A stretch of DNA of 64,000 bases from Nitrospiraceae bacterium (GCA_019637075.1 JAHBWI010000003.1:310001-374000); one strand, 5' to 3'; shown: positions 2,741 to 25,799, numbered from the stretch's first letter. The notes: generated by a model not told the origin, from the sequence alone. Numbers and translations are program-made.

Positions 2741-3136
2741 ATGCTCCGTTCCATCCATGCGTGCCGCGACGTCCGTCGGGTGCCGCTGTTGACGTTGATG
2801 GTGACGTGCCTGCTCGTCGGCATCCGCCTGACCGCTGCTCTTGTTTGTGCCACATGTTTCACCGAACTCGAGAAGCCTCCCACTCGCACGTTCCATCTCC
2901 ACGCCGGCGGCGACCGGGATCCTTGCCACCACGGGCAGGCGCCGGCGACGCCGTGGGTCGAGTGGGCCTGCTCGGTCAATCAGGATGACTCGGCCTTTCT
3001 CCTTCCGGAGATCTCACGGCTCCCGATCCTCGTTTCGACTCTCGTTCCCTTCTTCCTGCCCCTGGTCTCGTATCGGAGCTTCGCTTCGATCGCGGCCAAC
3101 GGTCGTGCTCCGCCCCCGTACTCGTTCGTTCGATAA
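2741..3136 (+). CDS. Small Cys/His-containing membrane protein, family 1 (copy A)
   Basis: About 131 residues, of no family I recognise. It is clearly paralogous to the protein at 6437-6835: both share a hydrophobic segment (CLLVGIRL/CLLVAIRL), then C..CF...EKP..R.FHLHAGGDRDPCHHG, WAC.V.QD..AF.LPEI.RLPI, and a second hydrophobic segment followed by SYR. The pattern of four cysteines and three or four histidines between two membrane segments suggests a periplasmic metal-binding loop. ATG 2741 was chosen because the promoter module places transcription start near 2709 and this start matches the paralogue; TTG 2714, GTG 2723 and GTG 2732 are alternatives. It precedes receptor 2 by about 215 bp. 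Confidence 0.65.
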   Translation: MLRSIHACRDVRRVPLLTLMVTCLLVGIRLTAALVCATCFTELEKPPTRTFHLHAGGDRDPCHHGQAPATPWVEWACSVNQDDSAFLLPEISRLPILVSTLVPFFLPLVSYRSFASIAANGRAPPPYSFVR

Positions 3137-3350
3137 GCCCCTGCAACAGATGGAAACGATCTCCCAGCCCTGAAGACCGCGTTGGGCGAGATCGTGTGTC
3201 CGAATCAGCCGGCTCGGTTGGGTGCGCGAGGACGCGCCTGCCTGAGGGCTCCGTCATCCGGATACCTGTGAATTGGAGCTGAGCCTTGCTCGGTGCCAAG
3301 CCGGTCGATTCGGGGAATGGGTGTCATGGGACGCAACAAGGAGTGTTGTC

Positions 3351-5570
3351 GTGATGAAGAGCAGTACCGCACATATGCAGAGCGCACGTCCGGTCATCGG
3401 CGTGATCGTGGCGATGATGTTGTTACCGGGGGGACGGGCCTGGGCCGACGAGTCGGCTGGAGCCGGAGCGGCGGAGGAGATTCCTATGGTCGAGTCGGCG
3501 GAGGTGATGATTTCCGCCACCCGCACGCCGACCTCGGTCGGTAACGTGAATCAGGCCGTCACGATCGTGACGGAGGAACAATTGCAGCAGCAGATTGCTG
3601 CGTCACCGAGCCGAAGTTTGACACAGATTCTGACGAAACTCGTGCCGGGCATGTCGCAGAACGATCAGTCGATGGATTCCGGCACATCATTGAAGATTAG
3701 GGGCCGGTCGATCGCGATCATGATCGACGGAGTCCCGCAGCAAAGCAGTCCGACCACGGAACTGGATCTGGCCCATATCGATCCCAGCGCCATCGAACGC
3801 ATCGAAATCATCCGCGGGGCGACCGCGATTTACGGTAACGGCGCCACGGGCGGTCTCATCAATATCATTACCAAGCAGCCGGGTGAGGGCAAGCCAAGCT
3901 ATTACACGGAGGTGCAAGGGAGCGGGTCGTTGACCAGGGTGTTGCGTGGGCTCAGCGGGACCGTGGTGCAGGGCTTTCAAGGCAAGAAAGACTGGTTCGA
4001 CTACAACATTGTCGGCAGCTTCAGCCAACAGGGTGGGATGTTCGACGCGAACGGCTCGCGCACCATGCCCGGCACCAATACGGTCGGCGGCTTTGCCGAC
4101 ACCAAGAGCTACAACATTATGAGCAAATTCGGGGCGACGTTCGGCGACCACCGGTTGCAGTTGACCTTCAATCGCAAGGAGTCGCGGCAGGATACCAATT
4201 ACCTGGTAGATCCCAATGTGGACGCGTTGCCGCGGACCTTCGCGAGATATGTGCCTGGTTTGTCGCTGGCAGACCAACCCAAGCTGGCGAACACGCAGAT
4301 CAGCGTCGATTACACCCACCCCCACCTGTTTCTCAACAGCCGCGTGCACTTGCAAGGGTACTACCGTACACAGCAGACGCGGTTTCCCACTTTGGACAGC
4401 CGGCTGTTCGGCGGCACGGATATTTTGCAAGGCTATAACCAAAGCGACGTGTTGGGAACCAGGCTCGACATCACCACGCCCATTCCGATCTATGGGAAGC
4501 CGGAAATCGTGTGGGGCATGGACTTCTCCAGCCAGCACGGGGCCCAGTCGCAGAGTCTCTTCGACCAGGCCGTGTATGATGGGTCCGGAGGGCGTGTCTA
4601 CAGCAAGAACGGCGAGGTGGCCTCGTCTCCCTCGCGTGTCTTCAACAGCACCGCAGTGTTCGCGCAAGGGGAGTGGACTCCGCTCGCCGCGCTGATCCTG
4701 CGCGGCGGCGTGCGGCATGAGCGGGTGAAGGTGTCCAGCAGCGATTTCACCGGGAACGGGTCCTTCCTCCCGGCCAGTTCGATCGACTTCGACACGACCG
4801 TGTTCAATGCCGGATTCGTGTACCACCTGTTGGACCCGCTGGATGTATTTTTCAACTTCAGCCAAGGCTTCAGTGTGCCGGTGGGGTCGATCGACAACGC
4901 GTTGGGCAATGTGCCGTCCGGTACCGCCATCTCGCTCTCGCGCCTGCAGCCGCAACGAGTCAATAATTACGAACTCGGTGTGCGGGGCAAATGGAGCAAG
5001 GTTCAGGCGTCGCTCTCCGGGTACATTTCCAAGTCATCGCTGGGGTTGAATTTCGATCAATTCACCAATTCCCTGCGGCGGGCTCCGCAAACGATCTACG
5101 GCGTCGAGGCCACGCTCGATGTGCAGCCGATCGAGCGGGTGCGTTTGGGCGGAACCTATACGTTCGTGGAAGGCGATCAGACCATCGCCTTCAACCCGGA
5201 TGTCCGGGTGCCGTTGAACGGCTTTGCGATCGCGCCGCAGAAGATCACCGCATACCTTGAACACCTGACGGTGCCTGAATGGCAGTGGCGCAATCGGATC
5301 CAGGTGCTCTATTCGGGGAGCCGCACCCGCTCGCTGACGGCATTCAACAGCGGGATCGATCCCACCGCGGATCCCTTCGGCCAGACGGAGTACTTTCTGG
5401 TCGATCTGGTCAGTACCGTGAAGGCCGGTCCTGGGACACTCCGGTTCGGCATCGAGAATCTGCTGAACAAGCAGTACGCGACGCCGTTCAACCAGATTTC
5501 CTTCACCAACAGTTTCTATTTCGCAGGGCGCGGAACCACGGCCTCGATCGGCTATTCGATCTACTACTGA
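3351..5570 (+). CDS. TonB-dependent outer-membrane receptor 2
   Basis: An outer-membrane transporter of about 739 residues. AAGGAG at 3338-3343 sits 7 bp before GTG 3351; ATG 3354 is in frame and equally possible, while the longer upstream reading frame lacks a signal. The signal peptide runs to about ARAWADES. Plug landmarks are ISATRTPTSVGNVNQAVTIV, LKIRGRS, AIMIDGVPQQ, ERIEIIRGATAIYGNGATGG and NIITK, and the barrel ends ASIGYSIYY. The plug resembles FepA/ViuA/IutA-type catecholate and hydroxamate receptors; the ligand is not determined. It lies downstream of promoter copy A and the small membrane protein, so it is probably part of the same regulated unit. Confidence 0.88.
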   Translation: MMKSSTAHMQSARPVIGVIVAMMLLPGGRAWADESAGAGAAEEIPMVESAEVMISATRTPTSVGNVNQAVTIVTEEQLQQQIAASPSRSLTQILTKLVPGMSQNDQSMDSGTSLKIRGRSIAIMIDGVPQQSSPTTELDLAHIDPSAIERIEIIRGATAIYGNGATGGLINIITKQPGEGKPSYYTEVQGSGSLTRVLRGLSGTVVQGFQGKKDWFDYNIVGSFSQQGGMFDANGSRTMPGTNTVGGFADTKSYNIMSKFGATFGDHRLQLTFNRKESRQDTNYLVDPNVDALPRTFARYVPGLSLADQPKLANTQISVDYTHPHLFLNSRVHLQGYYRTQQTRFPTLDSRLFGGTDILQGYNQSDVLGTRLDITTPIPIYGKPEIVWGMDFSSQHGAQSQSLFDQAVYDGSGGRVYSKNGEVASSPSRVFNSTAVFAQGEWTPLAALILRGGVRHERVKVSSSDFTGNGSFLPASSIDFDTTVFNAGFVYHLLDPLDVFFNFSQGFSVPVGSIDNALGNVPSGTAISLSRLQPQRVNNYELGVRGKWSKVQASLSGYISKSSLGLNFDQFTNSLRRAPQTIYGVEATLDVQPIERVRLGGTYTFVEGDQTIAFNPDVRVPLNGFAIAPQKITAYLEHLTVPEWQWRNRIQVLYSGSRTRSLTAFNSGIDPTADPFGQTEYFLVDLVSTVKAGPGTLRFGIENLLNKQYATPFNQISFTNSFYFAGRGTTASIGYSIYY

Positions 5571-5642
5571 GCCCACCAGGCTGGAGTGCACACCGGCTCG
5601 GCATGATTCCATGCCGAGCCGGTTCGTGCCATTCTTCCCCTC

Positions 5643-5696
5643 TGTAGCAGCAGTGAGCAGCGATCAGTAGACGCTCCGCTTGCTCGTGCGTGTAGT
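5643..5696 (+). promoter_or_regulatory. Repeated promoter module, copy B
   Basis: TGTAGCAGCAGTGAGCAG at 5643-5660 carries AGCAG repeats 10 bp apart. It is followed by TCAG, TAGACG (5668-5673), 17 bp, and TGTAGT (5691-5696). It is conserved although the gene behind it is broken, which suggests recent decay. The promoter role is inferred from the six-copy alignment. Confidence 0.55.
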
Positions 5697-5707
5697 CGGC
5701 ACCCCTA

Positions 5708-6041
5708 ATGAATCGATTCGACACAGTGGACGGCATGGCTGCTGCTCTGTGCCATCTATGCCTACTTCGTCGGCTTTCTTCCGTTCTTAGGCGCCGAGGA
5801 GTTTGCAGCGCACTATGCGATCGAAGGGGAACATGTTTCGGATTATGGATACTATGCCGCCCCGCAAATAGAAAAGCCGCAAGCAAATCAGGTGCTTCAG
5901 CCGGTCATGCTCCTCTGTTGCCCGGCTCCGCAACTGGTTGATCGTGCAGTGCTGGATGAATGGCAGCGTGATCGTCCGTCTCCGCTCGGATCTTCCCCTT
6001 CACATGGTCTCCGTGCCCCTCCCACGCTGATTCCCGCGTAA
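5708..6041 (+). pseudogene. Frameshifted small exported/membrane protein (paralogue of the gene at 12730)
   Basis: The only start codon (ATG 5708, MNRFDT) is out of frame with a good reading frame that runs from about 5712 to the stop at 6039-6041. That frame encodes a hydrophobic stretch (WTAWLLLCAIYAYFVGFLPF), FAAHYAIEGEH and an ending HGLRAPPTLIPA. It matches the intact protein at 12730-13077 in order and spacing (AEHYVTTPEEEH; HSLRAPPALMLA at the C-terminus). One extra base, or two missing, between about 5714 and 5727 accounts for the break. It could be a true pseudogene or a sequencing error. Confidence 0.6.
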
Positions 6042-6142
6042 CGCATTCCTGCGTCCATCGGCAGCCGCCGTCGTTCGATCGAGCCTCTGTCTCGACGGGC
6101 GGGGCCCTGCGCGAACCGAAGAAAGGGGATCATCGTGCGAGT

Positions 6143-6325
6143 GTGCCGATCAGTACGTTCTACAACCAGCCGGGTTTTCCAAGGGATCAAGTCGAGGGGC
6201 CGCTGGTCGACGTCAATGGGTTGCATAAGTTCAACGATTCTCCGGCCTATAACATGCCGGGGGAGCCGCTGATGGTAGTCGGTTCGTTGCGGTGGGAGTT
6301 CGAGTCATGGTGCCCGGTGCAGTGA
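6143..6325 (+). pseudogene. Probable C-terminal remnant of a TonB-dependent receptor
   Basis: This short reading frame has no ribosome site and ends with a typical receptor closing strand (PGEPLMVVGSLRWEF). Seven extra residues follow that phenylalanine, as if the original stop had been lost. It sits where a receptor gene would be expected by analogy with the 12656-15560 locus (promoter module, small protein, receptor), but about 2.2 kb of barrel and plug sequence is missing. Assignment rests on the terminal-strand pattern and context only. Confidence 0.4.
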
Positions 6326-6351
6326 GGAGCGCCTACCGGGTCTGGCGGGAC

Positions 6352-6405
6352 TGTAGCATCGGTGAGCAGGAGCTAGTAGACATGGGAGGTTGAGTTTCGT
6401 ATGGT
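6352..6405 (+). promoter_or_regulatory. Repeated promoter module, copy C
   Basis: TGTAGCATCGGTGAGCAG (6352-6369) is followed by GAGCTAG, TAGACA (6377-6382, close to a TTGACA -35), 17 bp, and TATGGT (6400-6405). It lies before the small membrane protein at 6437 and the PepSY/exporter genes. The -10-like box overlaps the ATG at 6401, which argues against that start. Confidence 0.65.
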
Positions 6406-6436
6406 AAGGGGGCTGCAGCTGTACGGAGTACATCCG

Positions 6437-6835
6437 GTGAACGACATTTTTCAGTTTGCGTCCATCCGTGGGCGAACGGGACGGACCCCGTCGCTGCTTG
6501 TTTTTGTTGCGTGTCTCCTCGTGGCCATCCGTTTGGTGGCCGGATTTGTCTGTCACACCTGCTTCATTGATTTCGAAAAGCCGACCTCCAGAAGCTTTCA
6601 TCTCCACGCCGGCGGAGATCGTGATCCCTGTCACCACGGCCGAGCCGAAGCGAGTCCCCTGACGACTTGGGCCTGTACGGTGACGCAGGACGAAACGGCG
6701 TTCATTCTCCCGGAAATTCCACGTCTCCCTATCGTGGTCTCTGAATTAGTTCCGCTGGTGTTGCTGCTGCTGTCCTATCGTACCTTGTTTGAGATTGTGG
6801 CCCACGGCCGCGGTCCCCCCGTTCCTCTCTCCTGA
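6437..6835 (+). CDS. Small Cys/His-containing membrane protein, family 1 (copy C)
   Basis: A protein of 132 residues with two hydrophobic segments (about 18-36 and 98-115). Between them lies a loop carrying CHTC and HLHAGG followed by DPCHHG. It is paralogous to 2741-3136, with cysteines, histidines and the closing SYR/GR.PP motif kept. GTG 6437 is preferred: GGAG at 6425-6428 is 8 bp away, and the upstream ATG 6401 falls inside the promoter -10 box. Metal binding in the periplasm is inferred from the residues only. It probably heads the unit that continues with the PepSY protein and the exporter, about 170 bp downstream. Confidence 0.65.
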   Translation: MNDIFQFASIRGRTGRTPSLLVFVACLLVAIRLVAGFVCHTCFIDFEKPTSRSFHLHAGGDRDPCHHGRAEASPLTTWACTVTQDETAFILPEIPRLPIVVSELVPLVLLLLSYRTLFEIVAHGRGPPVPLS

Positions 6836-7002: not shown

Positions 7003-8244
7003 GTGGTGCGCAGGATCATGAGTCACATGGTACGTGAGACCGTCACATCCGCATCGGTTTCGATGCCAGACGCCTCCCGGCGCACTCGCAGACGCGCGTG
7101 GCGCGCTGTGTGGGTGCAGGTGCATTTGTATTTGGGGCTATTCGTCGGAGCTCTGCTGGTGGTCTTCGGGGTGACGGGTAGCGTGCTCGTCTTCTTTCAG
7201 GAGATCGACGAGTGGCTGAATCCAACACTCCTGACGGTAGAGGTTCCGGCGCCAGGGCAGGATGAGTATCGGCCGGTGGGTGAGATCTTGGCGGCGGCGG
7301 AGCGGGCGGCGGCGCCGGGGAGCCGCATCACCCAGGTGTATGGCGCGCCGACTCGTGAACGTGTCGTGGCCGTGTATGTTGAGCAGCCCTCGACGGCCTG
7401 GCAGCGAATCTTTGTCGATCCCTATCGGGCCCGGGTCACGGGGGTGCGCAGCTACGGAGCTGGCGAGTGGGTCCCACGGTATTTCATGGATGCCGTCTTT
7501 TCGCTGCATTTTCAACTCTTGGCCGGTGTGAACGGCGTGACGCTGGCGGCGATTGTGGCGTGGCTGCTGATCCTCTCGTTGATCACGGGCGTGATCGTCT
7601 GGTGGCCTGTGAACGGCCAGTGGCGGCAGGCGCTGGTCATCAGGCGGCCGGCCATACCCTTCCGTCTCCTGTTTGATCTCCATAAGACGGTCGCGCTCTA
7701 TCTCTGTCTTGCGATCGGGGCGATCTTGCTGTCGGGTGCCTATATGAACTGGGCAGATCCCATCGTCTGGGTGACACAGCTCATGTCTCCGGCAACACGC
7801 GGGCCTGCGGAGGCCCCTCATTCCACCCCGCTTGCCGGTGGGCATCCGATCAGCCCGGAGCAGGCGGTGGCGTTGGCGGCGGCTCGCTATCCGGAGGGCC
7901 GACTGAGGTCGATCTCCATGCCGGAAGATGCAACAGGCGTCTATCAGGTCGGGCGGGAAGGCGTGCCGGGATTGAGCACGTTTTGGTCGGAACGGATCGT
8001 GAGCGTGGATCAATACAGTGGTGCGATTCTCGACGTGCGGGCCCCCGATACGAGGCGGAGCGCCGGAGAAACGTTTATCGATTGGCAATGGCCCCTGCAT
8101 TCGGGGCAGGCGTTCGGGATGCCCGGCCGCCTGCTCGTGTGCGCCAGTGGCCTGGCCTGTCCGGTCATCTATGCCACCGGGTTCCTCATGTGGTGGCGTA
8201 AGCGGCGTGGGCGCGAGCGGCGGGCGGTTGTGCCGATGTCATAA
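7003..8244 (+). CDS. PepSY-associated TM protein, putative ferric-siderophore reductase
   Basis: About 413 residues with the fold plan of the PepSY_TM family: an N-terminal segment (VHLYLGLFVGALLVVFGVTGS), a periplasmic PepSY region, two central helices (AAIVAWLLILSLITGVIVWWP and the helix after FDLHKTVALYL), a second periplasmic region, and a last helix ending in MWWRKRR. Histidines in WVQVHL, SLHFQL and FDLHK are at positions typical of haem-binding inner-membrane reductases. Members such as FpvG reduce ferric siderophores after import. The start is unsure: GTG 7003 or 7006 are close to GGAGG (6997-7001), and ATG 7018 or 7027 are alternatives. A paralogue follows receptor 3 (15589-16896). 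Confidence 0.8.
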   Translation: MVRRIMSHMVRETVTSASVSMPDASRRTRRRAWRAVWVQVHLYLGLFVGALLVVFGVTGSVLVFFQEIDEWLNPTLLTVEVPAPGQDEYRPVGEILAAAERAAAPGSRITQVYGAPTRERVVAVYVEQPSTAWQRIFVDPYRARVTGVRSYGAGEWVPRYFMDAVFSLHFQLLAGVNGVTLAAIVAWLLILSLITGVIVWWPVNGQWRQALVIRRPAIPFRLLFDLHKTVALYLCLAIGAILLSGAYMNWADPIVWVTQLMSPATRGPAEAPHSTPLAGGHPISPEQAVALAAARYPEGRLRSISMPEDATGVYQVGREGVPGLSTFWSERIVSVDQYSGAILDVRAPDTRRSAGETFIDWQWPLHSGQAFGMPGRLLVCASGLACPVIYATGFLMWWRKRRGRERRAVVPMS

Positions 8245-8317
8245 CTCGCGCTCCGGCAGTTCGAATGGCATTAGCAGGGAGCGGGGCGACTCGCGGCCGT
8301 TCCCTGGAGGAGGTATC

Positions 8318-9586
8318 GTGTCTGCTCATCAATCACCCGATCGTCCTGAGCCTCGCAAATCCGGCATTCACGACGCCGATTTGGACGGGTTGGCGATTCG
8401 TCGTCCCGCTCCCGGTGAGCCCTCGCCTGCCGGTCGGCGCCGGTGGATCTGGCTGACTCTGGCCGTTCTGTTGGTTGCGGCCGGATTGGCCTGGAGCAGC
8501 GCCTGGCTGCGACCGGATCAACGGGTCGAGGTGGTTCCGGTGATTCGCATGCCGTCAGGGAGCGGGGCAGGCCTGGCGGCGACCGGGTATGTGGTCGCGC
8601 AGCGGCAGGCCTCGATTGCGTCCAAGGGCACCGGACGATTGATCTATTTCGGCGTCAACGTCGGCGATCGCGTGAAGGAGGGCCAACTGATCGCGCGGAT
8701 CGAACACGACGACATGGATGCGCTCTATCGGCAGGCCTTGGCCCGGTTGGGTGTGGCGCGGGCGCAACTGGGTGCCGCAAAGCCGGAGCTCGAAGAGGCG
8801 ACGCTGAGTTTCGAGCGGGTGAGGACGCTCCTGGAGAAGTCGTTTGTCACCAAATCGGAGTACGACATGGCCTCGGCCCGTCTGCGTCGTGCCGCCGCTG
8901 CCGTGAAATCGGCTGAAGCGGCAGTCACGGCGGCGGAGGCCGAACGCCAAAACGCGACGGTCCAACTTGACAATACGAGCATCCACGCGCCGTTCGACGG
9001 GGTCATCGTGAAGAAATTGGCCGAGATCGGCGAGGTCGTGTCACCGTTCACCGCCACCGTCCGTTCCGGAGGGTCCGTGGTGAACATGGTCGACCCCTTG
9101 TCCGTGACGGTCGATGCGGAGGTGTCGGAATCAATGATTCACCGCGTGCGGGCTGGTCAGCCGGCGGAGATTCAACTCGATTCGGTGCCGGGGCACCGAT
9201 ATCAGGGCGAAGTGCAGCAGGTGATGCCGATCGCCGATCGCGCCAAGGGGACAGTGCTCACGCGCATCCGATTTCGTGACCTGGATGATCGGGTGCGGCC
9301 TGAGCTGAGCGCCAAGGTCACGTTTGGTCCTGTTCCCGGGGCGCCGGCAGAGCCGGGGGAGGACTGGGGTGTGCCATCCACCGCCGTGGTGACCCGCGAG
9401 GGGCGATCGGTGGTGCTCGTTGTGCGTGCGGGTATCGTGGCGGAAGCGGTGGTGCAAGTCGGGACCCCCGCGGCCGGGATGGTCCCCGTGCATGGACCCC
9501 TGTCGCAGACCGATGAAGTCATTGTCGCGCCGACCGAGACCGTGCATTCCGGCAGCACGGTGTCGGTCATCCGTCGTGTCTCGTAA
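8318..9586 (+). CDS. Membrane-fusion (periplasmic adaptor) protein, MacA/HlyD-like
   Basis: A protein of 422 residues. GGAGGAGG at 8306-8313 fixes GTG 8318 as the start. One N-terminal membrane anchor (about 46-66, WIWLTLAVLLVAAGLAWSS) is followed by a lipoyl-like half (GRLIYFGVNVGDRVKEGQLIARI), a long alanine-rich alpha-hairpin (about 130-205), the second lipoyl half (IHAPFDGVIV) and a beta-barrel/membrane-proximal region. It would connect an inner-membrane ABC transporter to an outer-membrane channel. Downstream lie an ATPase gene in pieces and two FtsX-like permeases, the normal MacA/MacB-like partner set. Confidence 0.85.
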   Translation: MSAHQSPDRPEPRKSGIHDADLDGLAIRRPAPGEPSPAGRRRWIWLTLAVLLVAAGLAWSSAWLRPDQRVEVVPVIRMPSGSGAGLAATGYVVAQRQASIASKGTGRLIYFGVNVGDRVKEGQLIARIEHDDMDALYRQALARLGVARAQLGAAKPELEEATLSFERVRTLLEKSFVTKSEYDMASARLRRAAAAVKSAEAAVTAAEAERQNATVQLDNTSIHAPFDGVIVKKLAEIGEVVSPFTATVRSGGSVVNMVDPLSVTVDAEVSESMIHRVRAGQPAEIQLDSVPGHRYQGEVQQVMPIADRAKGTVLTRIRFRDLDDRVRPELSAKVTFGPVPGAPAEPGEDWGVPSTAVVTREGRSVVLVVRAGIVAEAVVQVGTPAAGMVPVHGPLSQTDEVIVAPTETVHSGSTVSVIRRVS

Positions 9587-12655: not shown

Positions 12656-12709
12656 TGTAGCAGCCATGAGCACCCATCCGTAGGCAGCCCGCGGAGCGTC
12701 TGTTATAAG
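12656..12709 (+). promoter_or_regulatory. Repeated promoter module, copy D
   Basis: TGTAGCAGCCATGAGCAC (12656-12673) is followed by CCATCCG, TAGGCA (12681-12686), 17 bp, and TATAAG (12704-12709), the second being 5 of 6 to the sigma70 -10 consensus. It begins 28 bp after the exporter operon and would start transcription about 14 bp before the gene at 12730. It is among the strongest copies for the promoter reading. Confidence 0.7.
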
Positions 12710-12729
12710 CTCGCGCAGGAGTCTGTCTC

Positions 12730-13077
12730 ATGTCTCGCCTCAATCGATCCTGGCAAGCCTGCGTTGCGCTGCTGCTCTTCCTCCCGGTGTGGTGGTGGGT
12801 CGGGCTGCCGCCGCTCTGGAGCCCGGTCGATCTGGCCGAACACTATGTCACGACGCCCGAAGAAGAGCATTGCAATGAGGTCTGTCCGCATCCGATTTCT
12901 TTGGTAGATCCGCCGCAGGCCTCGTCGCTTCAAGCCGTTGTCTATGATTGTTCCCATCCGCCGGCGTGTCTCGTCACGCGCCTGCCCCACCTCCGCAAGC
13001 TTCGACCTCCACCGCCGAAGCTGATCACCGCCACACTGCACAGTCTCCGTGCTCCTCCCGCGCTGATGCTCGCGTAA
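12730..13077 (+). CDS. Small membrane/exported Cys-containing protein, family 2 (intact copy)
   Basis: A protein of 115 residues; AGGAG (12717-12721) lies 8 bp before the ATG. It has one hydrophobic segment near the N-terminus (CVALLLFLPVWWWVGL), then an acidic EEEHC, NEVCPHP, DCSHPPACL, a proline/basic stretch and the ending HSLRAPPALMLA. Five cysteines after the hydrophobic segment and several histidines suggest a periplasmic metal-binding tail. The frameshifted gene at 5708 is its paralogue. It stands between promoter copy D and receptor 3, so it is probably the first gene of that operon. I recognise no named family. Confidence 0.65.
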   Translation: MSRLNRSWQACVALLLFLPVWWWVGLPPLWSPVDLAEHYVTTPEEEHCNEVCPHPISLVDPPQASSLQAVVYDCSHPPACLVTRLPHLRKLRPPPPKLITATLHSLRAPPALMLA

Positions 13078-13172
13078 CACCCCGGTTCGCCCATATGAGG
13101 CCGACGGCTGTTCGGGCGAAGTCTGTCTTCGCGCTGGCCTCAGACCCATTCGCATCAACGAGGAGCATCACG

Positions 13173-15560
13173 ATGTTGTGTTCAGTCATGTCTCTGTCCC
13201 GTGAGTTCACCGGTATCAGTCGAGGCCGTTCGGTGACGACTGCCGTCATTGTCCTTCTTCCCATGCTCTCTGCCTGCATCGGACCCCATGTCCAACCGGC
13301 GCCAGCGCCGCAAAGTCAGGCAGGCATCGTCGAGCCGGCGGATCGCGTTGATCCTGCTCCGCAAGCCGAACAGATTCCATCGCAGACAACCGCTCCCTCG
13401 GCGCCTCTGCCCTTGCCGGTTTTGCCGGTGGAGGTCGCTCGATCCGAGGGGCTTCAGGAGGCGGGAGACATCCCGGTGATCGAAGCCGAGCCTGTGATCG
13501 TGACCGCACAGCGCGAGTCGTATGCCGTGGATTCAGCCTTTACGGCGACGAAGACTGATACTCCGCTGATGGAAACGCCGATGGCCGTGCAGGTGGTTCC
13601 GAAGCAGGTCCTGCAGGATCAGCGGGTGAATCGACTGCAGGATGCCTTGCAGAACGTGAGCGGAGTGCGCTCCAACAACAATGACGTCGAAGGGTATGTC
13701 TACAAGTTGCGGGGGTTTAACAGTCTCCATGTCTTCCGCAACGGTCTGACCTTGGCGGGCGGCCTTGGCTCCAACCCAGGGATTCATGAGACCGCGAACC
13801 TCGAACGGGTGGAGGTGCTGAAAGGGCCGGCCTCCGTGCTGTTCGGGCGAGCGGAGCCGGGCGGGTTGATCAACCTCGTCACCAAACGTCCCCTTGCGAC
13901 ACCATATTACAAGCTGGAGCAGGAATTCGGCTCCTATGATCACTATCGAACGGTCTGGGATGCGACCGGACCGTTGAATCAGTCCGGCACGATCGGCTAC
14001 CGATTGTCGGGCGCCTATCAGGACTATGGCTCGTTTCGAGATTTTCAGGGCGGGCGGCGGGTGTTTCTCGCGCCGGTCCTAGCCTTCAAGCCGACCGATC
14101 GGACCGATCTGGTCATCGACCTGCAGTATTTGAGGAACGATGCGCAGAGCGATACGATCTTTCCGGCTCTCGGCAATCGCCCGGCGCCGCTCGCGCTTCA
14201 CCGGTCGTTCCAGGAAGCCAACGATCCCCGCGACTGGACCGGCAATTTCAACCTCGGTTACGACCTGACCCACCGGTTCAACCAAAATTGGTCGCTCACC
14301 AGCCGCTTTCTGTTCAGTAAAGGCAGCATGAAAAAGCTGAACGTCTTCGCCACGGCGCTGGACGACGCGACCGGGGTGCTGGACCGCACCACGCAGTTCC
14401 AGAAGCTCATGAGCACCACCTACGCGACCAACCTGGATCTCAAGGGGAAGTTTGATGCGCTGGGCGCGAAGCATCAGGTCCTGGTCGGCGTGGACTACCT
14501 GCATGATGCCTACGACTATAGCTATGCGGAGGGCCTTTCGAATTTCCCCATCAATATTTTCAACCCTGTGTATGGCAGCGTTCCGACCTCGGCCTATGAC
14601 GAGGCCTTAAACGGGGCTGGGTTTCGAAGTTTTGCCTCGTCTCTCGTGAAACAGGCTGGCGTCTATGTTCAGGATCAGATCACCCTCTTTGGCAAGTTGC
14701 ATGTCTTGCTCGGGGGACGATACGACCATGCCGAAGTCGGGCAGGGCAACAGTGACGTCTCTCGCGAGGAGGCCATCACCGATCGCCACGGACGATTCGT
14801 GAGAACGGACGAGCAGTTCAGTCCGCGCGCCGGGATCCTGTATCAATGGACCGCGCAGTTGAGTACATACGCGAGCTATTCAAAATCCTTCGGTGCCAAC
14901 AACGGTCGCTCGGCGACTGGGGAGGCGCTGCCTCCCGAGAGTGGTGAGCAGTTCGAAGTGGGCACCAAGACCGAGCTGTTCCAGGGATTCTCGGCCACCG
15001 TGGCCCTGTTTCATTTGATCAAGAAGAACATCCTGACACCGGATCTGACCACTCCGGATCCCACCGACGCTAGGGCGGTCGGCCAAGCGCGCAGTCAGGG
15101 TGTCGAAGTTGATCTTCTTGGTGCGGTGACCACGCAACTGGATCTAATCGTGACGTACGCGTATCTCGATACCAAGGTCACGCGGGACGACAGCGGCCTG
15201 CAGGGTAATCGGCTGGACAATGTGCCGTCGCATAGTGGGCGAGTCTTTCTTGTGTATCACTTCGGTGGCGAGGGCGGATTGGGCTGGCGGGTCGGTGGAG
15301 GCGTCTCGGCGGCCAGCGCGGTGTCTGGAGATCGGGAAAACACGTTCAATCTGCCCGCGTATTACAGGCTGGATGCCATGACGAGTTACACCGCCATGGT
15401 TGGTGGCCGGCGCCTGACGGCTCAACTCAACCTGCGCAATCTGACGAATACGAAGTACTTCGACGGGACCGATATCTTCTACAACCAGCGGTCGCCGCGG
15501 TTTGGCCTGTTTGCCGCACAGCCCCTCATGGCGTTCGGCACAATTCGAATGGAGTTCTAA
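13173..15560 (+). CDS. TonB-dependent siderophore receptor 3 (FhuE/Fiu-like), with lipobox-like leader
   Basis: A receptor of 795 residues. GAGGA at about 13160 precedes ATG 13173; the open frame further upstream overlaps the small gene and is not needed. The leader ends in LLPMLSAC, a good lipobox, which is unusual for a receptor of this class. A proline-rich linker of about 70 residues follows, then the plug (METPMAVQVVPKQVLQDQ, YKLRGF, LERVEVLKGPASVLFGRAEP, GGLINLVTKRP) typical of the TonB-siderophore family, and a barrel ending FGTIRMEF. It is followed at 28 bp by a PepSY reductase-type protein, the standard receptor/reductase pairing for ferric siderophores. Confidence 0.88.
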   Translation: MLCSVMSLSREFTGISRGRSVTTAVIVLLPMLSACIGPHVQPAPAPQSQAGIVEPADRVDPAPQAEQIPSQTTAPSAPLPLPVLPVEVARSEGLQEAGDIPVIEAEPVIVTAQRESYAVDSAFTATKTDTPLMETPMAVQVVPKQVLQDQRVNRLQDALQNVSGVRSNNNDVEGYVYKLRGFNSLHVFRNGLTLAGGLGSNPGIHETANLERVEVLKGPASVLFGRAEPGGLINLVTKRPLATPYYKLEQEFGSYDHYRTVWDATGPLNQSGTIGYRLSGAYQDYGSFRDFQGGRRVFLAPVLAFKPTDRTDLVIDLQYLRNDAQSDTIFPALGNRPAPLALHRSFQEANDPRDWTGNFNLGYDLTHRFNQNWSLTSRFLFSKGSMKKLNVFATALDDATGVLDRTTQFQKLMSTTYATNLDLKGKFDALGAKHQVLVGVDYLHDAYDYSYAEGLSNFPINIFNPVYGSVPTSAYDEALNGAGFRSFASSLVKQAGVYVQDQITLFGKLHVLLGGRYDHAEVGQGNSDVSREEAITDRHGRFVRTDEQFSPRAGILYQWTAQLSTYASYSKSFGANNGRSATGEALPPESGEQFEVGTKTELFQGFSATVALFHLIKKNILTPDLTTPDPTDARAVGQARSQGVEVDLLGAVTTQLDLIVTYAYLDTKVTRDDSGLQGNRLDNVPSHSGRVFLVYHFGGEGGLGWRVGGGVSAASAVSGDRENTFNLPAYYRLDAMTSYTAMVGGRRLTAQLNLRNLTNTKYFDGTDIFYNQRSPRFGLFAAQPLMAFGTIRMEF

Positions 15561-15588
15561 ATGCAGGCCGCTGCAGAAAGGAGCCGGT

Positions 15589-16896
15589 ATGTTCACCAGA
15601 CCGTTCTGGGTTCGGCTGCATCGCTGGGCCGGGCTGGCCATGGCCGGTTTGCTGATTGTGGTCGGCCTGACGGGAAGTCTGCTGGCGTTTTATCCGGAGC
15701 TTGAGCGACTCGTCCATCCACACTGGTATCCGGACCGCGCTCCGGCCACGTGGATGGGCGCCGGCGCGCTGGCAGAGAAACTGGAGAGGGCCGAGCCGCG
15801 ATTGCGCGTCCAGCAGTTGTCGTTGCAGGGCTTCGACGGCGCGACCTCCGCCTGGGTGGAGCCTCGCCTCGATCCGGCTACCGGCAAGCTGTTCGAGCTG
15901 GGCTACGACTATGTCCTACTCGATCCGGCGACGGGCGCGGTGCTCGACCGGATTCGGTGGGGCTCGCTGCTGAACGGATGGACCGGCCTCATGTCTTTCG
16001 TCTACGCGTTGCACTATGCGTTGGCACTGGACATGCCGGGTGTCTGGATTCTGGGAATCTGTGCCCTGGTGTGGACGCTGGATTGTTTTGTCGGGTTGTA
16101 TCTGACCTTCCCGGCCCGGCGGTCTCGTGAAGCACACGCGCACTTGCAGCCGGCTCCCGGCGATGCAAGCTGGTGGGCGCGTTGGAAGCGAGCCTGGATC
16201 ATCAAACCCGGCAATGCCCAGCGCGTCAATTTCGACCTCCACCGGGCAGGCGGTTTGTGGTTGTGGCTTGCCCTAGTGCTGTTTGCCTGGTCGAGCGTCT
16301 ACATGAACCTGTGGGATACGGTGTACACCTGGACCACGCGGGCGTTCTTCGACTACCGCACCTATTGGACGGAGTTTCGACCACGGCCCGCTCTGATGGA
16401 GCGGACAGGGTTGGATTGGCTGGACGCGCAGGCGGTCGGGGAGCGGCTCATCGCGGAGCAAGCCGCGTTGCAGGGCTTCATGGTGAAGCGGCCGGTGGTG
16501 CTTCGGCTATATCGTGATCTCGGCGTCTATCAGTACCAGGTTGAGACCGATCGGGAAATCGACGATCGTCCGCGTCGATACGCGACGCAAGTCTTTTTCG
16601 ACGCCGACTCGGGTGCGCTACGCCTCGCGCTGCTGCCTCGCGGCCAATATGCTGGCAACACCATCAGCAATTGGCTCTATGCACTGCATATGGCCAATGT
16701 GTTCGGCTTGCCCTATCGGATCTTTGTCTGTTTCCTGGGAGTCGTCGTCGCGATGCTTTCCGTCACGGGCGTGTACCTCTGGGTGAAGAAACGCCGATCC
16801 AGGGCCATGGCGCAGGCCCGGTTACTTCGGCTGCCGGACGTGCAGTCGGCTAGGCCATCGGGTCACGCAGATCTGAAGAGTTCTGCGAATTTGTAG
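15589..16896 (+). CDS. PepSY-associated TM protein 2, putative ferric-siderophore reductase
   Basis: A protein of 435 residues; AAAGGAG lies just before ATG 15589. It has the PepSY_TM plan: helix 1 in MFTRPFWVRLHRWAGLAMAG, a periplasmic part, helices around LHYALALDMPGVWILGICALVWTLD and FDLHRAGGLWLWLALVLF, a second periplasmic part, and a last helix (IFVCFLGVVVAMLSVTGVYLWV) with a basic tail. Conserved histidines HRWAG, LHYAL, FDLHR and LHMAN fit haem ligation. It is translated right after receptor 3 and is likely needed to release iron in the periplasm or at the inner membrane. It is paralogous to 7003-8244. Confidence 0.82.
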   Translation: MFTRPFWVRLHRWAGLAMAGLLIVVGLTGSLLAFYPELERLVHPHWYPDRAPATWMGAGALAEKLERAEPRLRVQQLSLQGFDGATSAWVEPRLDPATGKLFELGYDYVLLDPATGAVLDRIRWGSLLNGWTGLMSFVYALHYALALDMPGVWILGICALVWTLDCFVGLYLTFPARRSREAHAHLQPAPGDASWWARWKRAWIIKPGNAQRVNFDLHRAGGLWLWLALVLFAWSSVYMNLWDTVYTWTTRAFFDYRTYWTEFRPRPALMERTGLDWLDAQAVGERLIAEQAALQGFMVKRPVVLRLYRDLGVYQYQVETDREIDDRPRRYATQVFFDADSGALRLALLPRGQYAGNTISNWLYALHMANVFGLPYRIFVCFLGVVVAMLSVTGVYLWVKKRRSRAMAQARLLRLPDVQSARPSGHADLKSSANL

Positions 16897-16945
16897 CAGC
16901 CGTGAGCAGGCGTCGGTAGACAAGCTCTGAGGATGGGCATACAAG
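16892..16945 (+). promoter_or_regulatory. Repeated promoter module, copy E
   Basis: TGTAGCAGCCGTGAGCAG (16892-16909) overlaps the stop of the PepSY gene. It is followed by GCGTCGG, TAGACA (16917-16922), 17 bp, and TACAAG (16940-16945). Transcription would start near 16952, after the ATG at 16933, which supports the later start of the next gene. Confidence 0.65.
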
Positions 16946-16971
16946 AACGCGTACAGAGGAAAACCCTGACG

Positions 16972-17304
16972 ATGCAGATGTGGTTCCCCAAACGCTGGCC
17001 GGTCCTTCTCTCCATTCTGGTCGCAGGAGTGTATCTCTCGCTGACGCTCATGGCCGCCGGCTGCCTGATGAGCCATGCCGCCGAGTCCGGTCACCATGAC
17101 CACCATGCGGCGGGCAATTCCGGCTCCTTACTCTGCGCCGTTTCCTGTCAGGCCACTTCCGATTCAGACCTCGTCTTGCCGGCTCCGACCGGCATTCCCT
17201 TAGCCACCGCCTTCATCATCGCGCCTTCAACTTCCGCGGATCTTTCCGCCGAAGTGGCCTCGGCGCGTCAGCCACGCGCACCGCCTGTCCCAGCCCTGGG
17301 ATAG
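16972..17304 (+). CDS. Small exported His-rich protein
   Basis: About 110 residues. The start at 16972 (AGAGGA at 16955-16960) is chosen over ATG 16933 because the latter lies within promoter copy E. An N-terminal hydrophobic segment (VLLSILVAGVYLSLTLMAAGCL) is followed by HAAESGHHDHHAAG, two cysteines (LLCAVSCQ) and a Pro/Ala-rich tail. The layout resembles small DUF2946-type periplasmic proteins found beside TonB-dependent metal receptors, but the match is only by pattern. Metal binding in the periplasm is a reasonable inference; no function is known. Confidence 0.6.
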   Translation: MQMWFPKRWPVLLSILVAGVYLSLTLMAAGCLMSHAAESGHHDHHAAGNSGSLLCAVSCQATSDSDLVLPAPTGIPLATAFIIAPSTSADLSAEVASARQPRAPPVPALG

Positions 17305-19252: not shown

Positions 19253-19777
19253 ATGCAAGGTGGATTGGCAGCGGTCGTCGGTTCCTTTCCGCACAGGACC
19301 TCTGAGCTCGCCGAGTATCCTGGGTTGAAGGTGGCAGTGGTGCGGTTGCTCACGATCGCCCTCCATATCAGCGGGGAGCAAGGCGTAGGTGTTCGGGAGG
19401 TGGCCATGCCGCTTCCGACAGGCTATCGGGCCTGGCCGAGCTACTCAGCCCTCGTCCAGTCGGCAGCCGGTTGTCGGCGTATCCATTGTTATGTGAGTTC
19501 GAAGGCGCTCTGTACCGGGGATGACCGAGCCTTTCCTGTCGGGACGTCGTTCGTCGTCGAGACCTATGCCTACGACGGCCCGGGTAGGGCGAAGGTGCCG
19601 GCGTCGGGCAATGCGACGGGGCCTGAGTTCATATTCGTGATGGGGAAATATGCCAGCATGAGTTCGGAGGATGATCGCGCAGAGCGGTGGCAGACCTGGA
19701 TGTATGCGAGTTACGGCCAGGACGGCCTGCCTCTGGCCGCCGCGGCAAGCTCATGCGGGTTCTGCCGATTGTCTTGA
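19253..19777 (+). CDS. Cytochrome P460-like protein with altered haem motif (CxxCR)
   Basis: A protein of 174 residues; AAAGGAG (19240-19246) lies 6 bp before the ATG. The body has the P460 pattern: MPLPTGYRAWPSY, RRIHCYVSSKAL, FPVGTSFVVETY, EFIFVMGKYAS and a closing Cys-x-x-Cys. Instead of CxxCH the chain ends SSCGFCRLS, with arginine where the haem-ligating histidine should be, and it stops right there. No clear signal peptide is seen although P460 proteins are periplasmic. P460 cytochromes oxidise hydroxylamine or bind NO in ammonia oxidisers. Here the protein may be non-haem, degenerate, or truncated by a small indel near the end. Confidence 0.55.
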   Translation: MQGGLAAVVGSFPHRTSELAEYPGLKVAVVRLLTIALHISGEQGVGVREVAMPLPTGYRAWPSYSALVQSAAGCRRIHCYVSSKALCTGDDRAFPVGTSFVVETYAYDGPGRAKVPASGNATGPEFIFVMGKYASMSSEDDRAERWQTWMYASYGQDGLPLAAAASSCGFCRLS

Positions 19778-22919: not shown

Positions 22920-25799
22920 ATGGCGATCGATCCCGTCTGCGGCATGACGGTGGATCCGGCGAAGGCAGCCGGGCGGTTTGAGTACCAGGGTGCGACCTAT
23001 TACTTTTGCAGCACGCATTGCCTGGACCGGTTCCGCTCGGCCCCGGATCGCTATCTCCGGCCGGTCGAGGTCGAGGCCAAGACGGCTCCGCCCAAATCCC
23101 GCTCGCTGCCGATGATGCAGGCACCCGCGCCCGAGGCCTCGCCGGCGGGAGCGCGCGATCCTGTGTGCGGCATGACGGTCCAGCCTGCTGCCGCCGCCGC
23201 CACCCATCGCCATCGCGGCACCACCTACTATTTCTGCTGCCAAGGTTGCGCCACCAAGTTCGCGGCTGATCCGGAACGCTACCTCTCTGCGCCTGCCTCG
23301 CCGGCCCCTCTGATGCCGGCCGGGAAAAAGTCGCTTCCGATGCTCAACCCTGGGCCTGCTCCTTCCGCCGCCAAGGGAGAGATCGATCCCGTCTGCGGGA
23401 TGACGGTGGAGCCGACCGGTGCCGCGGGACAGTTCGCCCATGGCGGGAAGACCTATTACTTTTGCTGTCAGGGATGCCTCACGAAGTTTCGTGCCGACCC
23501 CGAACGCTACATGAAGCCCGGTGCCGCCAAGTCGATGGAACCGCCCGTTCCGGCTCCCCCCGGCACGCAATACATCTGTCCGATGTGCCCGGAAGTCTTG
23601 GAGAACAAACCGGTGCCCTGTCCGAAATGCGGCATGGCGCTGGAACCTGCATCGCCCCTGCAGGCCGCTACGAAGACCGAGTATGTCTGTCCGATGCATC
23701 CCGAGGTGGTCGCGCAAGAGCCCGGCGCCTGTCCGAAGTGCGGGATGGCGTTGGAAGCGAGGGTCGTCACGATCGACGAAGCCGCCAACCCGGAACTCGT
23801 CGATATGTCGAGACGGTTCTGGATCGCGCTGGGACCGGCGGCGGTGGTGTTCGTGCTGGCTATGTCGCACATGGTTCCCGGGCATCCGTTGCAGCATCTC
23901 ATTCCGGACCAACTCTCCGCCTATATTCAGCTCGGGCTGTCCACTCCCGTCGTGCTCTGGGCCGGGTGGCCGTTCTTCCAACGGGGATGGAACTCGATCA
24001 TCCATCGCAGCCCCAATATGTTCACGCTCATCGCGATCGGGACCGGCACCGCCTACCTGTATAGTGTCGTCGCGGCCCTGATGCCGGACCTCATTCCGCG
24101 GTCGTTCCAGATGGAAAACGGTTCAGTGCCGGTGTATTTCGAGGCAGCGGCCGTCATTACGGTGCTCGTGCTGCTCGGGCAAGTACTGGAGTTGCGGGCG
24201 CGCAGCCGTACGACCGGCGCGATCAAGGCGTTGCTCGGACTGGCGCCGAAGACCGCCAGACGGGTGCTCGGTGACGGTCGCGAAGAAGATGTGCTGTTGG
24301 AACAGGTGCGGATCGGGGACCGTCTCCGTGTCCGGCCCGGTGAAAAGGTGCCGGTGGACGGGGCGATCGAAGAAGGCGCGACGGCGGTCGATGAATCGAT
24401 GATCACCGGTGAATCGCTCCCGGTCGAAAAGGGCGTCGGCAGCTTCATTACCGGCGGGACCATCAACGGGACGGGTAGTGTGGTGATGCGGGCGCAGCGG
24501 GTCGGCGCCGAAACGGTGCTGGCGCAAATCGTGGGCATGGTGGCCGAAGCGCAACGGAGCCGCGCGCCGATCCAGCGCGTAGCGGATGTCGTCGCCGGGT
24601 ATTTCGTCCCATTGGTGGTCGGGACTGCGGTGCTCACGGGCCTGGCTTGGGCGTTCTTCGGGCCGGAACCCCGTTTGGCCTATGCGCTGGTGAATGCCGT
24701 GGCCGTATTGATCATCGCCTGCCCCTGTGCGCTTGGGCTGGCCACGCCGATGTCTATCATGGTGGGAACGGGCCGGGGGGCGACGGCCGGGGTGCTGGTA
24801 CGCAAGGCCGAGGCCCTCGAGACGCTCGAGAAGGTGGATACGCTGGTGTTCGACAAGACCGGCACGCTGACGGAAGGGAAACCCAAGCTTCGTGTGGTCA
24901 GTGCCCTGTCGCCCTGGCCTGAGACGGAGTTGTTACGACTAGCGGCTTCCGTCGAGCGGGGCAGCGAGCATCCGCTGGCCGCCGCCATTGTGGCAGGGGC
25001 CCAGGCGCGAGGGGTGGCGCTCGATCCGGTTCGTGAGTTTCATAGCATGACCGGCAGGGGCGTAAAGGGCAAGGTCGGAAACCACCTTGTCGCCGTCGGC
25101 ACGATGGCTTTCCTGCAAGAGTCCGGGATTCCGCCGGCATTGTTGCATGACGTGGAAGCGAACGCCGACTTGATCCGCCGGTTGGGACAGACGGTCATGT
25201 TCGCGGCGGTGGACGGCAAGCCGGCAGGAGTCATCGGTGTGGCCGATCCGGTGAAAGCCTCAACGCCTGAAGCCCTGCGGGCGCTCAAGCGAGCCGGCGT
25301 GAAGCTGGTCATGGTGACGGGCGACCATCGGGCCACGGCCGAGGCGGTGGCCAAGGAACTGGATCTCGATGATGTCCGGGCCGAAGTGAAGCCGGAAGAA
25401 AAGAGCCGGCTCGTTCAAGAATTCCAAAAACAGGGCCGAGTCGTGGCGATGGCGGGAGACGGGGTCAACGATGCCCCGGCGCTGGCCCAAGCCGACGTGG
25501 GGCTGGCCATGGCCACCGGCACCGATGTCGCGATGCAAAGCGCCGGTATCACGCTGCTCCACGGTGACCTGCGGGGAATCGTCCGTGCCCGCCGCTTGAG
25601 CCGCGCCACCATGCGGAACATCCGCCAGAACCTCCTGTTTGCCTTCCTCTATAATATGATCGGAGTGCCGATCGCGGCGGGGGTGCTCTATCCGTTCTTC
25701 GGTCTGCTGCTCAGCCCGATGCTCGCCAGCGCGGCCATGACCTTCAGCTCGGTCTCGGTCATCACCAACGCCTTGCGGCTCCGACGGGTGGAATTGTAA
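22920..25799 (+). CDS. P1B-type heavy-metal (copper) ATPase with three YHS and two Cys-rich N-terminal modules
   Basis: A protein of 959 residues. The N-terminus holds three YHS domains (each DPVCGMTV ... TYYFC..C ... F..DP.RYL, at about 3-47, 78-125 and 154-200), then two heavy-metal-binding modules ([19 protein letters not shown] at about 217-245 and [19 protein letters not shown] at about 255-285). The core is a CopA-type pump: eight helices, actuator TGES, CPCALG in helix 6, DKTGTLTEG phosphorylation site, SEHPLA, and [10 protein letters not shown]. Copper(I) export is the best guess from CPC and the terminal MxxSS-like AMTFSSVSV. It lacks the usual HMA ferredoxin-like domains; the many metal modules are notable. 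Confidence 0.92.

Follow-up and report, generated by a model that had tools for sequence, protein, structure and literature searches.

The locus described here raises the question of what two small, cysteine- and histidine-rich membrane proteins do, encoded by open reading frames (ORFs) 2741–3136 and 6437–6835 of a 64,000-nt stretch of DNA (hereafter the window) from a Nitrospiraceae bacterium (GCA_019637075.1, JAHBWI010000003.1:310001–374000). Coordinates are those of the window unless stated, and the small ORFs (sORFs), promoters and target genes located below are on the plus strand. A preliminary description had proposed that the two proteins could be metal chaperones, sensors or regulators for the adjacent TonB-dependent receptor or exporter. 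A C-terminal motif, its spacing to a conserved cysteine, linkage to receptor genes, a shared promoter, purifying selection and codon-dependent pairing with Shine-Dalgarno (SD) sequences were computed here, and together they make it quite probable that these proteins and their relatives (family A) are cis-acting regulatory nascent chains, that is, leader-peptide metal sensors on which a stalled ribosome opens the next gene. A protein family of nitrifying bacteria that lacks annotation is hereby given a proposed function.

The two ORFs, sORF 1 (2741–3136, 131 amino acids) and sORF 2 (6437–6835, 132 amino acids), are paralogous as first described, with DNA 72% alike over 130 nt and proteins 55% identical. 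Each protein contains two hydrophobic segments, the N-terminal one having the character of an export signal or membrane segment (hydropathy 2.2–2.8 over 19 residues) and the second lying 13–31 residues ahead of the arginine of a C-terminal RxPP motif. Counted from this arginine, the reference for all negative positions given here, the four cysteines and four histidines of the loop occupy the same places in both copies: C −86, C −83, H −70, H −68, C −60, H −59, H −58 and C −45. Alignment of 33 relatives showed residues C42, H57, C65, W78, C80, D85 and G-R-x-P-P to be invariant, the first cysteine of the CxxC being replaced by histidine in three of them; the possibility raised beforehand, that most homologues might lack the Cys/His residues, was not borne out. 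Values of the ratio of non-synonymous to synonymous substitution rates (dN/dS) against the 6437 protein were about 0.05–0.25 for unsaturated pairs, evidencing purifying selection and indicating that the peptide is translated and that its sequence matters. Combined with the promoter module described below, the aligned relatives and the dN/dS values exclude, in agreement with the preliminary description, that the family A sORFs are chance ORFs. Starts at 2741 and 6437 are preferable because, of the longest upstream starts, 6401 sits inside a −10 element and 2714 is near the expected transcription start.

Close relatives of family A were found in Nitrospira genomes by a single-query search, and a phylum-wide sample placed such relatives in two taxonomic families, both of the order Nitrospirales, frequently as 2–4 copies per 10–15 kb; the host genome (4.06 Mb) has exactly two members. 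Searches of Pfam and NCBIfam gave no match, and a search of the PDB gave no solved relative. The AlphaFold model was mostly unstructured and of low confidence (mean predicted local distance difference test score, pLDDT, 58), its confident part being a helix at residues 17–43; no fold search was made from it.

Each of the two sORFs is the first gene behind a copy of a promoter module, in agreement with the preliminary description. Module 1 (2648–2702), ahead of sORF 1, consists of the repeats GTAGCA-N4-TGAGCA followed by a −35-like TAGACG and a −10-like TAGCAT, and module 3 (6352–6406), ahead of sORF 2, has TAGACA and TATGGT as −35 and −10 elements. Three more copies are found at 5643–5697 (module 2), 12656–12710 (module 4; TAGGCA and TATAAG) and 16892–16946 (module 5; TAGACA and TACAAG). 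At up to three mismatches the window contains five copies of the 30-nt module, and shuffled sequence none; in the whole genome it is found six times with up to two mismatches, always on the same strand and within a cluster of sORFs. With one mismatch it was detected in 68 of 396 Nitrospirota genomes, restricted to two families of one order, and the reversed pattern was found zero times in the same genomes. In 95% of 61 distinct modules, collected from about 20 genomes, a spacer of 17 or 18 nt separates TAGACA from a TA, which is a sigma70-like arrangement. This and the upstream repeat ruled out a promoter for an extracytoplasmic function (ECF) sigma factor. The repeats look like a putative activator site; neither the genes scanned in the cluster nor the 25 commonest neighbor families included a linked transcription regulator.

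The C termini of these proteins are the most informative as to function. Every family A member carries R(G/A/S)PP at 4–8 residues from the stop, encoded by CGT GCT CCG CCC in sORF 1 (3104–3115) and by CGC GGT CCC CCC in sORF 2 (6809–6820). Of the 61 first ORFs headed by a module, 55 are small ORFs with the same ending (RGPP in 25, RAPP in 24 and RSPP in 6), compared with 33 among 2061 other ORFs of 60–220 amino acids, many of these 33 being visibly sORFs of the same type. Its distance to the last cysteine, the invariant one of a WAC triplet, is exactly 45 residues in all 32 family A proteins counted, and 42–43 residues in 11 of 11 members of two further sORF types, families C and E; family C has a CxxxC at −47/−43. 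Judging from the length of the exit tunnel, a cysteine 45 residues before the arginine would have just left the ribosome once the motif reaches the peptidyl-transferase center. Family A also has the layout of known RAPP/RGPP arrest peptides, with R(A/G)PP near the C terminus of a small exported ORF and a co-directional next gene, and that of CutF-like leaders, being shorter than 150 amino acids, with PP within the last 15 residues, an export signal and a same-strand next gene within 1 kb.

Linkage to genes for TonB-dependent receptors and PepSY proteins, for which a neighborhood survey had been suggested, was confirmed: out of 45 genes scanned downstream of sORFs, 34 encode the plug domain of a TonB-dependent receptor and nine a PepSY_TM domain. 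In the window, sORF 1 precedes a receptor gene (3354–5570) whose nearest NCBIfam model is RhtA, below cut-off. The first target gene of sORF 2 encodes a PepSY_TM protein (7003–8244, identified by Pfam), and it is followed by a HlyD/MacA-type adaptor (within 8018–9586; HlyD by Pfam) and then by an ABC ATPase and two FtsX-type permeases, named from sequence only.

This layout, with the sORF first in the operon, receptor and PepSY genes behind it and a long intergenic region, is that of CruR from Bordetella pertussis (Bp2923, DUF2946/PF11162), a small exported leader that arrests at RAPP and in which copper bound to a CxxC lets Rho stop transcription before the receptor gene (PMC9426467); the copper-responsive cruR-crtA-crpH operon has the order leader, TonB-dependent receptor and PepSY_TM protein (PMC13038864). 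Both have a cysteine metal motif and a RAPP-like motif near the C terminus, and the distance from cysteine to arginine is 46 residues in CruR (C93 to R139; PMC9426467), compared with 45 or 43 here. A further report describes in vitro arrest of CruR with the P and A sites occupied by both proline codons, and RGPP and RAPP as arrest-prone, RSPP partly so (PMC12992588). Family A differs from CruR in having another, longer Cys/His loop and a second hydrophobic segment; its CxxC lies at −86/−83 and not about 46 residues before the arginine, the position of the CruR cysteine being occupied by the single invariant WAC cysteine.

Family A lies outside PF11162, since 0 of 33 members matched at the gathering score. 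For family C, nine of 15 members matched below cut-off (best E 8e-4), the member in the window scoring 14.9 versus the 23.7 required, and the whole host genome yielded no match to PF11162 at E≤10. Straight membership of DUF2946 was thereby ruled out for families A and C. By contrast, a profile comparison of families A and C gave Prob 95.7 and E 1e-8, and the family C profile recovered both family A genes in the host genome (E 5e-8 and 2e-7), so the two families are homologous as judged by their profiles. The earlier statement that the proteins match no known family therefore holds as far as Pfam and NCBIfam are concerned and has to be amended by an apparent remote relationship to DUF2946 through family C, itself DUF2946-like below cut-off. 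No paper on DUF2946 in Nitrospira was found in the literature searched.

The sequence CCUCC is complementary to the SD sequence. The proline pair of the arrest motif is written as CCT-CCN in 37 of 55 sORFs (25 of 32 in family A, 10 of 12 in family B, a further sORF type, and 2 of 11 in family C), compared with 64 of the 316 Pro-Pro pairs found in other genes (Fisher P=1.3e-11, not corrected for relatedness). Pairing of the SD of the next gene with the tail of the sORF was assessed by partition-function folding, with a control in which the tail was randomly recoded with synonymous codons while protein and intergenic region were kept unchanged. The mean probability of pairing was 0.53 for family A and 0.79 for family B, and fell to 0.12 and 0.23, respectively, upon recoding. 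For the family B sORF in the window (12730–13077), positions 13049–13057, within the arrest codons, pair with 13160–13168 (GAGGAGCAU) in an SD-sequestering helix spanning 13049–13168; this GAGGAGCAU is the SD just ahead of the receptor start at 13173, and the pairing probability was 0.99 (control 0.27). The intergenic region of family B measures 92–95 nt in nearly all cases, and little covariation is seen because the helix is nearly invariant. In the leader RNA of sORF 1 (3104–3361), RNAfold predicted pairing of the last codons and stop (3121–3142) with the receptor gene around its start (3339–3361), with a probability for the SD of 0.39 (synonymous control 0.19), which is weak on its own. For sORF 2 the value was 0.47, and the start region of the next gene was mostly engaged in other pairs. 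A stem-loop masking the next SD, as in CutF-like leaders, was thus found in silico, strongly in family B and partially in family A.

These observations suggest the following course of events. An activator and the housekeeping sigma factor would transcribe each operon from the common module. The sORF would be translated first, its N-terminal membrane segment targeting the nascent chain to the membrane and the Cys/His loop emerging from the ribosome, which would then arrest at R(G/A/S)PP shortly before the stop codon, its P and A sites being occupied by the two proline codons. As long as the mRNA is free, the arrest codons and last codons of the sORF would be paired with the SD/start region ahead of the downstream receptor or PepSY gene, and the stalled ribosome would open that SD and permit translation of the downstream gene. 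Metal on the Cys/His loop would most likely relieve the arrest, following the logic of CruR, so that uptake is turned off when metal is plentiful. Of the roles originally put forward, sensor or regulator fits this scheme, and a free metal chaperone is disfavored by the R(G/A/S)PP motif, the fixed distance from cysteine to arginine and the base-pairing between arrest codons and the next SD.

The same sensor could act differently, the stalled ribosome blocking Rho-dependent termination in the intergenic region, which is exactly the mechanism of CruR, and not unmasking an SD. We regard this as possible, albeit doubtful. The intergenic regions of family A are long (median 217 nt), like the 162 nt of CruR (PMC9426467), and the 3′ halves of the sORFs are rich in C and poor in G (C 0.40 and G 0.19 at 3012; 0.47 and 0.19 at 12973), resembling the C>G bubble of cruR and leaving room for a contribution of Rho. 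SD pairing is also weak in some family A members, implying that not every copy need act through SD masking; but Rho alone would not explain why, in family B and in many members of family A, the arrest motif pairs with the SD in a codon-specific way. It is improbable that the sORFs encode metal-binding working proteins, such as a periplasmic chaperone or a reductase accessory akin to the small partners of ferrisiderophore reductases. A membrane segment, a Cys/His loop and receptor and PepSY_TM neighbors would suit such a task, but not the constant position of the sORF as first gene directly behind the promoter, the occurrence of several sORF types in that place, the conserved C-terminal RxPP with its biased codons, or a predicted structure that is mostly unstructured. 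Very improbable is an arrest peptide of the SecM or ApdA kind that senses membrane insertion or the capacity of Sec/YidC in place of metal: leaders with R(A/G)PP ahead of sec genes belong to this type (PMC10987492) and the second hydrophobic segment could feel a pulling force, yet the targets are receptor and PepSY genes and not Sec genes, and the invariant Cys/His residues and fixed spacing would have no explanation.

Several points weigh against the proposal of a metal-sensing leader that unmasks an SD. Six of the 61 modules lack an sORF with R(G/A/S)PP, the predicted SD pairing is weak to moderate in both family A sORFs of the window and missing in several relatives, and the P values overstate independence since the sequences are related. 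Ribosome arrest, metal binding, the identity of the metal and the direction of the response are inferred by analogy with known systems. Regarding the metal, Cu(I) would be about twice as probable as iron, other metals being on a par with iron; copper is uncertain because the receptors resemble the siderophore or metallophore type and not a copper-specific one. The model for copper-specific receptors (TIGR01778) reached just 23 bits, for the receptor at 321–2582, and was discarded.

In addition to CruR, other leaders share traits with those described here. CutF of Rhodobacter capsulatus and CutF-like proteins are exported, have fewer than 150 amino acids and a C-terminal PP, a CxxxC as in family C and a stem-loop over the next SD (PMC9973294); unlike the present sORFs, which have R(A/G/S)PP and precede uptake-type genes, CutF precedes a multicopper oxidase and copper raises expression. 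ApdA, ApdP and SecM have an R(A/G)PP or RAGP core near the C terminus, and SecM also exposes a masked SD, but they are tied to Sec/YidC, have no metal motif, and no SD-masking hairpin is predicted for ApcA, ApdA and ApdP (PMC7897499). A survey of 52,895 genomes, with seven examples from Streptomyces lividans, describes RAPP/RGPP leaders of the same class, including TonB-receptor, PepSY and copper-related ones (PMC12992588). The kind is therefore known from CruR, CutF and the RAPP/RGPP leaders, and arrest leaders ahead of TonB- and PepSY-type genes have been noted in general (PMC12992588); family A, Nitrospira, a shared promoter and codon/SD coupling were not found in the searched passages of the survey. 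The Cys/His family, the array of operons under one promoter in Nitrospira and the arrest codons serving as anti-SD appear new relative to the literature searched. Predicted SD masking, in place of or besides Rho, and a multi-operon array with one promoter are further differences from CruR.

At least four sORF types (A, B, C and E) are found behind modules. Family B has the signature GLPPLW..LAEHY..HC..C..SLRAPP, and its member at 12730–13077 (115 amino acids, ending SLRAPPALMLA) is the putative arrest leader of a receptor of the siderophore/metallophore type (13173–15560; a relative of FptA, CntO, FoxA and FhuA), with a PepSY_TM protein (15502–16896) in the same operon. A second member (5712–6041, ending LRAPPTLIPA) has no usual in-frame start codon and is probably broken; the operon at 5643–6325 consists of the module, this startless leader and a C-terminal scrap of a receptor gene (6143–6325). 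Family C is His-rich, with CxxxC and RAPP, and its member at 16933–17304, which contains HHDHH and is DUF2946-like below cut-off, probably starts further in because ATG 16933 is close to the −10 element. Genome-wide searches of the host retrieved two members of family A, two of B and five of C, and no others; all nine lie on the plus strand of contig 3 between 295.6 and 327.3 kb, in a 32-kb cluster. It is conceivable, and we put it forward tentatively, that this 32-kb array of Nitrospira holds at least nine distinct nascent-chain sensors, mostly under one activator and each with its own metal or metallophore and receptor, in which the arrest codons themselves act as anti-SD, merging arrest and SD release into a single event. 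The RAPP/RGPP leaders, so far a loose list, would become a single testable regulon with one promoter, several sensor types and defined targets; overlap of arrest motif and anti-SD would be a compact coupling of a nascent-chain signal to translation, testable by synonymous mutations alone. If true, this would show how metal uptake is controlled in Nitrospira, a key organism in nitrification.

Four further family C leaders ending in RAPP or RGPP are located just upstream of the window (contig 3: 295570–308789), next to genes for TonB, a TonB-dependent receptor, a thioredoxin-like protein, an S9 peptidase and BNR-repeat proteins; in no case does such a leader directly follow a recognizable module as its first ORF. 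No relatives of family C were found on plasmids. In several genomes, family C leaders are followed by cytochrome P460-like genes (19253–19777 in the window; L064:13561–14202, L066:5574–6074 and L051:6506–7123 elsewhere). A P-type metal ATPase with three YHS domains is encoded near the cluster (22920–25799), and a similar gene occupies the corresponding place in N. defluvii (L051:12188). Modules devoid of an sORF precede BNR-repeat, YceI-like, ExbB-like and DUF5666-like genes, the YceI-like and ExbB-like ones being named from sequence; at two loci of the neighboring family (L060, about 5708, minus strand; L061, 7488) the module stands, with no leader ORF, ahead of a small exported DUF5666-like protein resembling CusF. 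Finally, locus L054 contains a single leader of another type (16607–16987), which ends in GRAPPVYFS, has few cysteines and histidines, precedes a receptor gene and is possibly a sensor of something besides metal.

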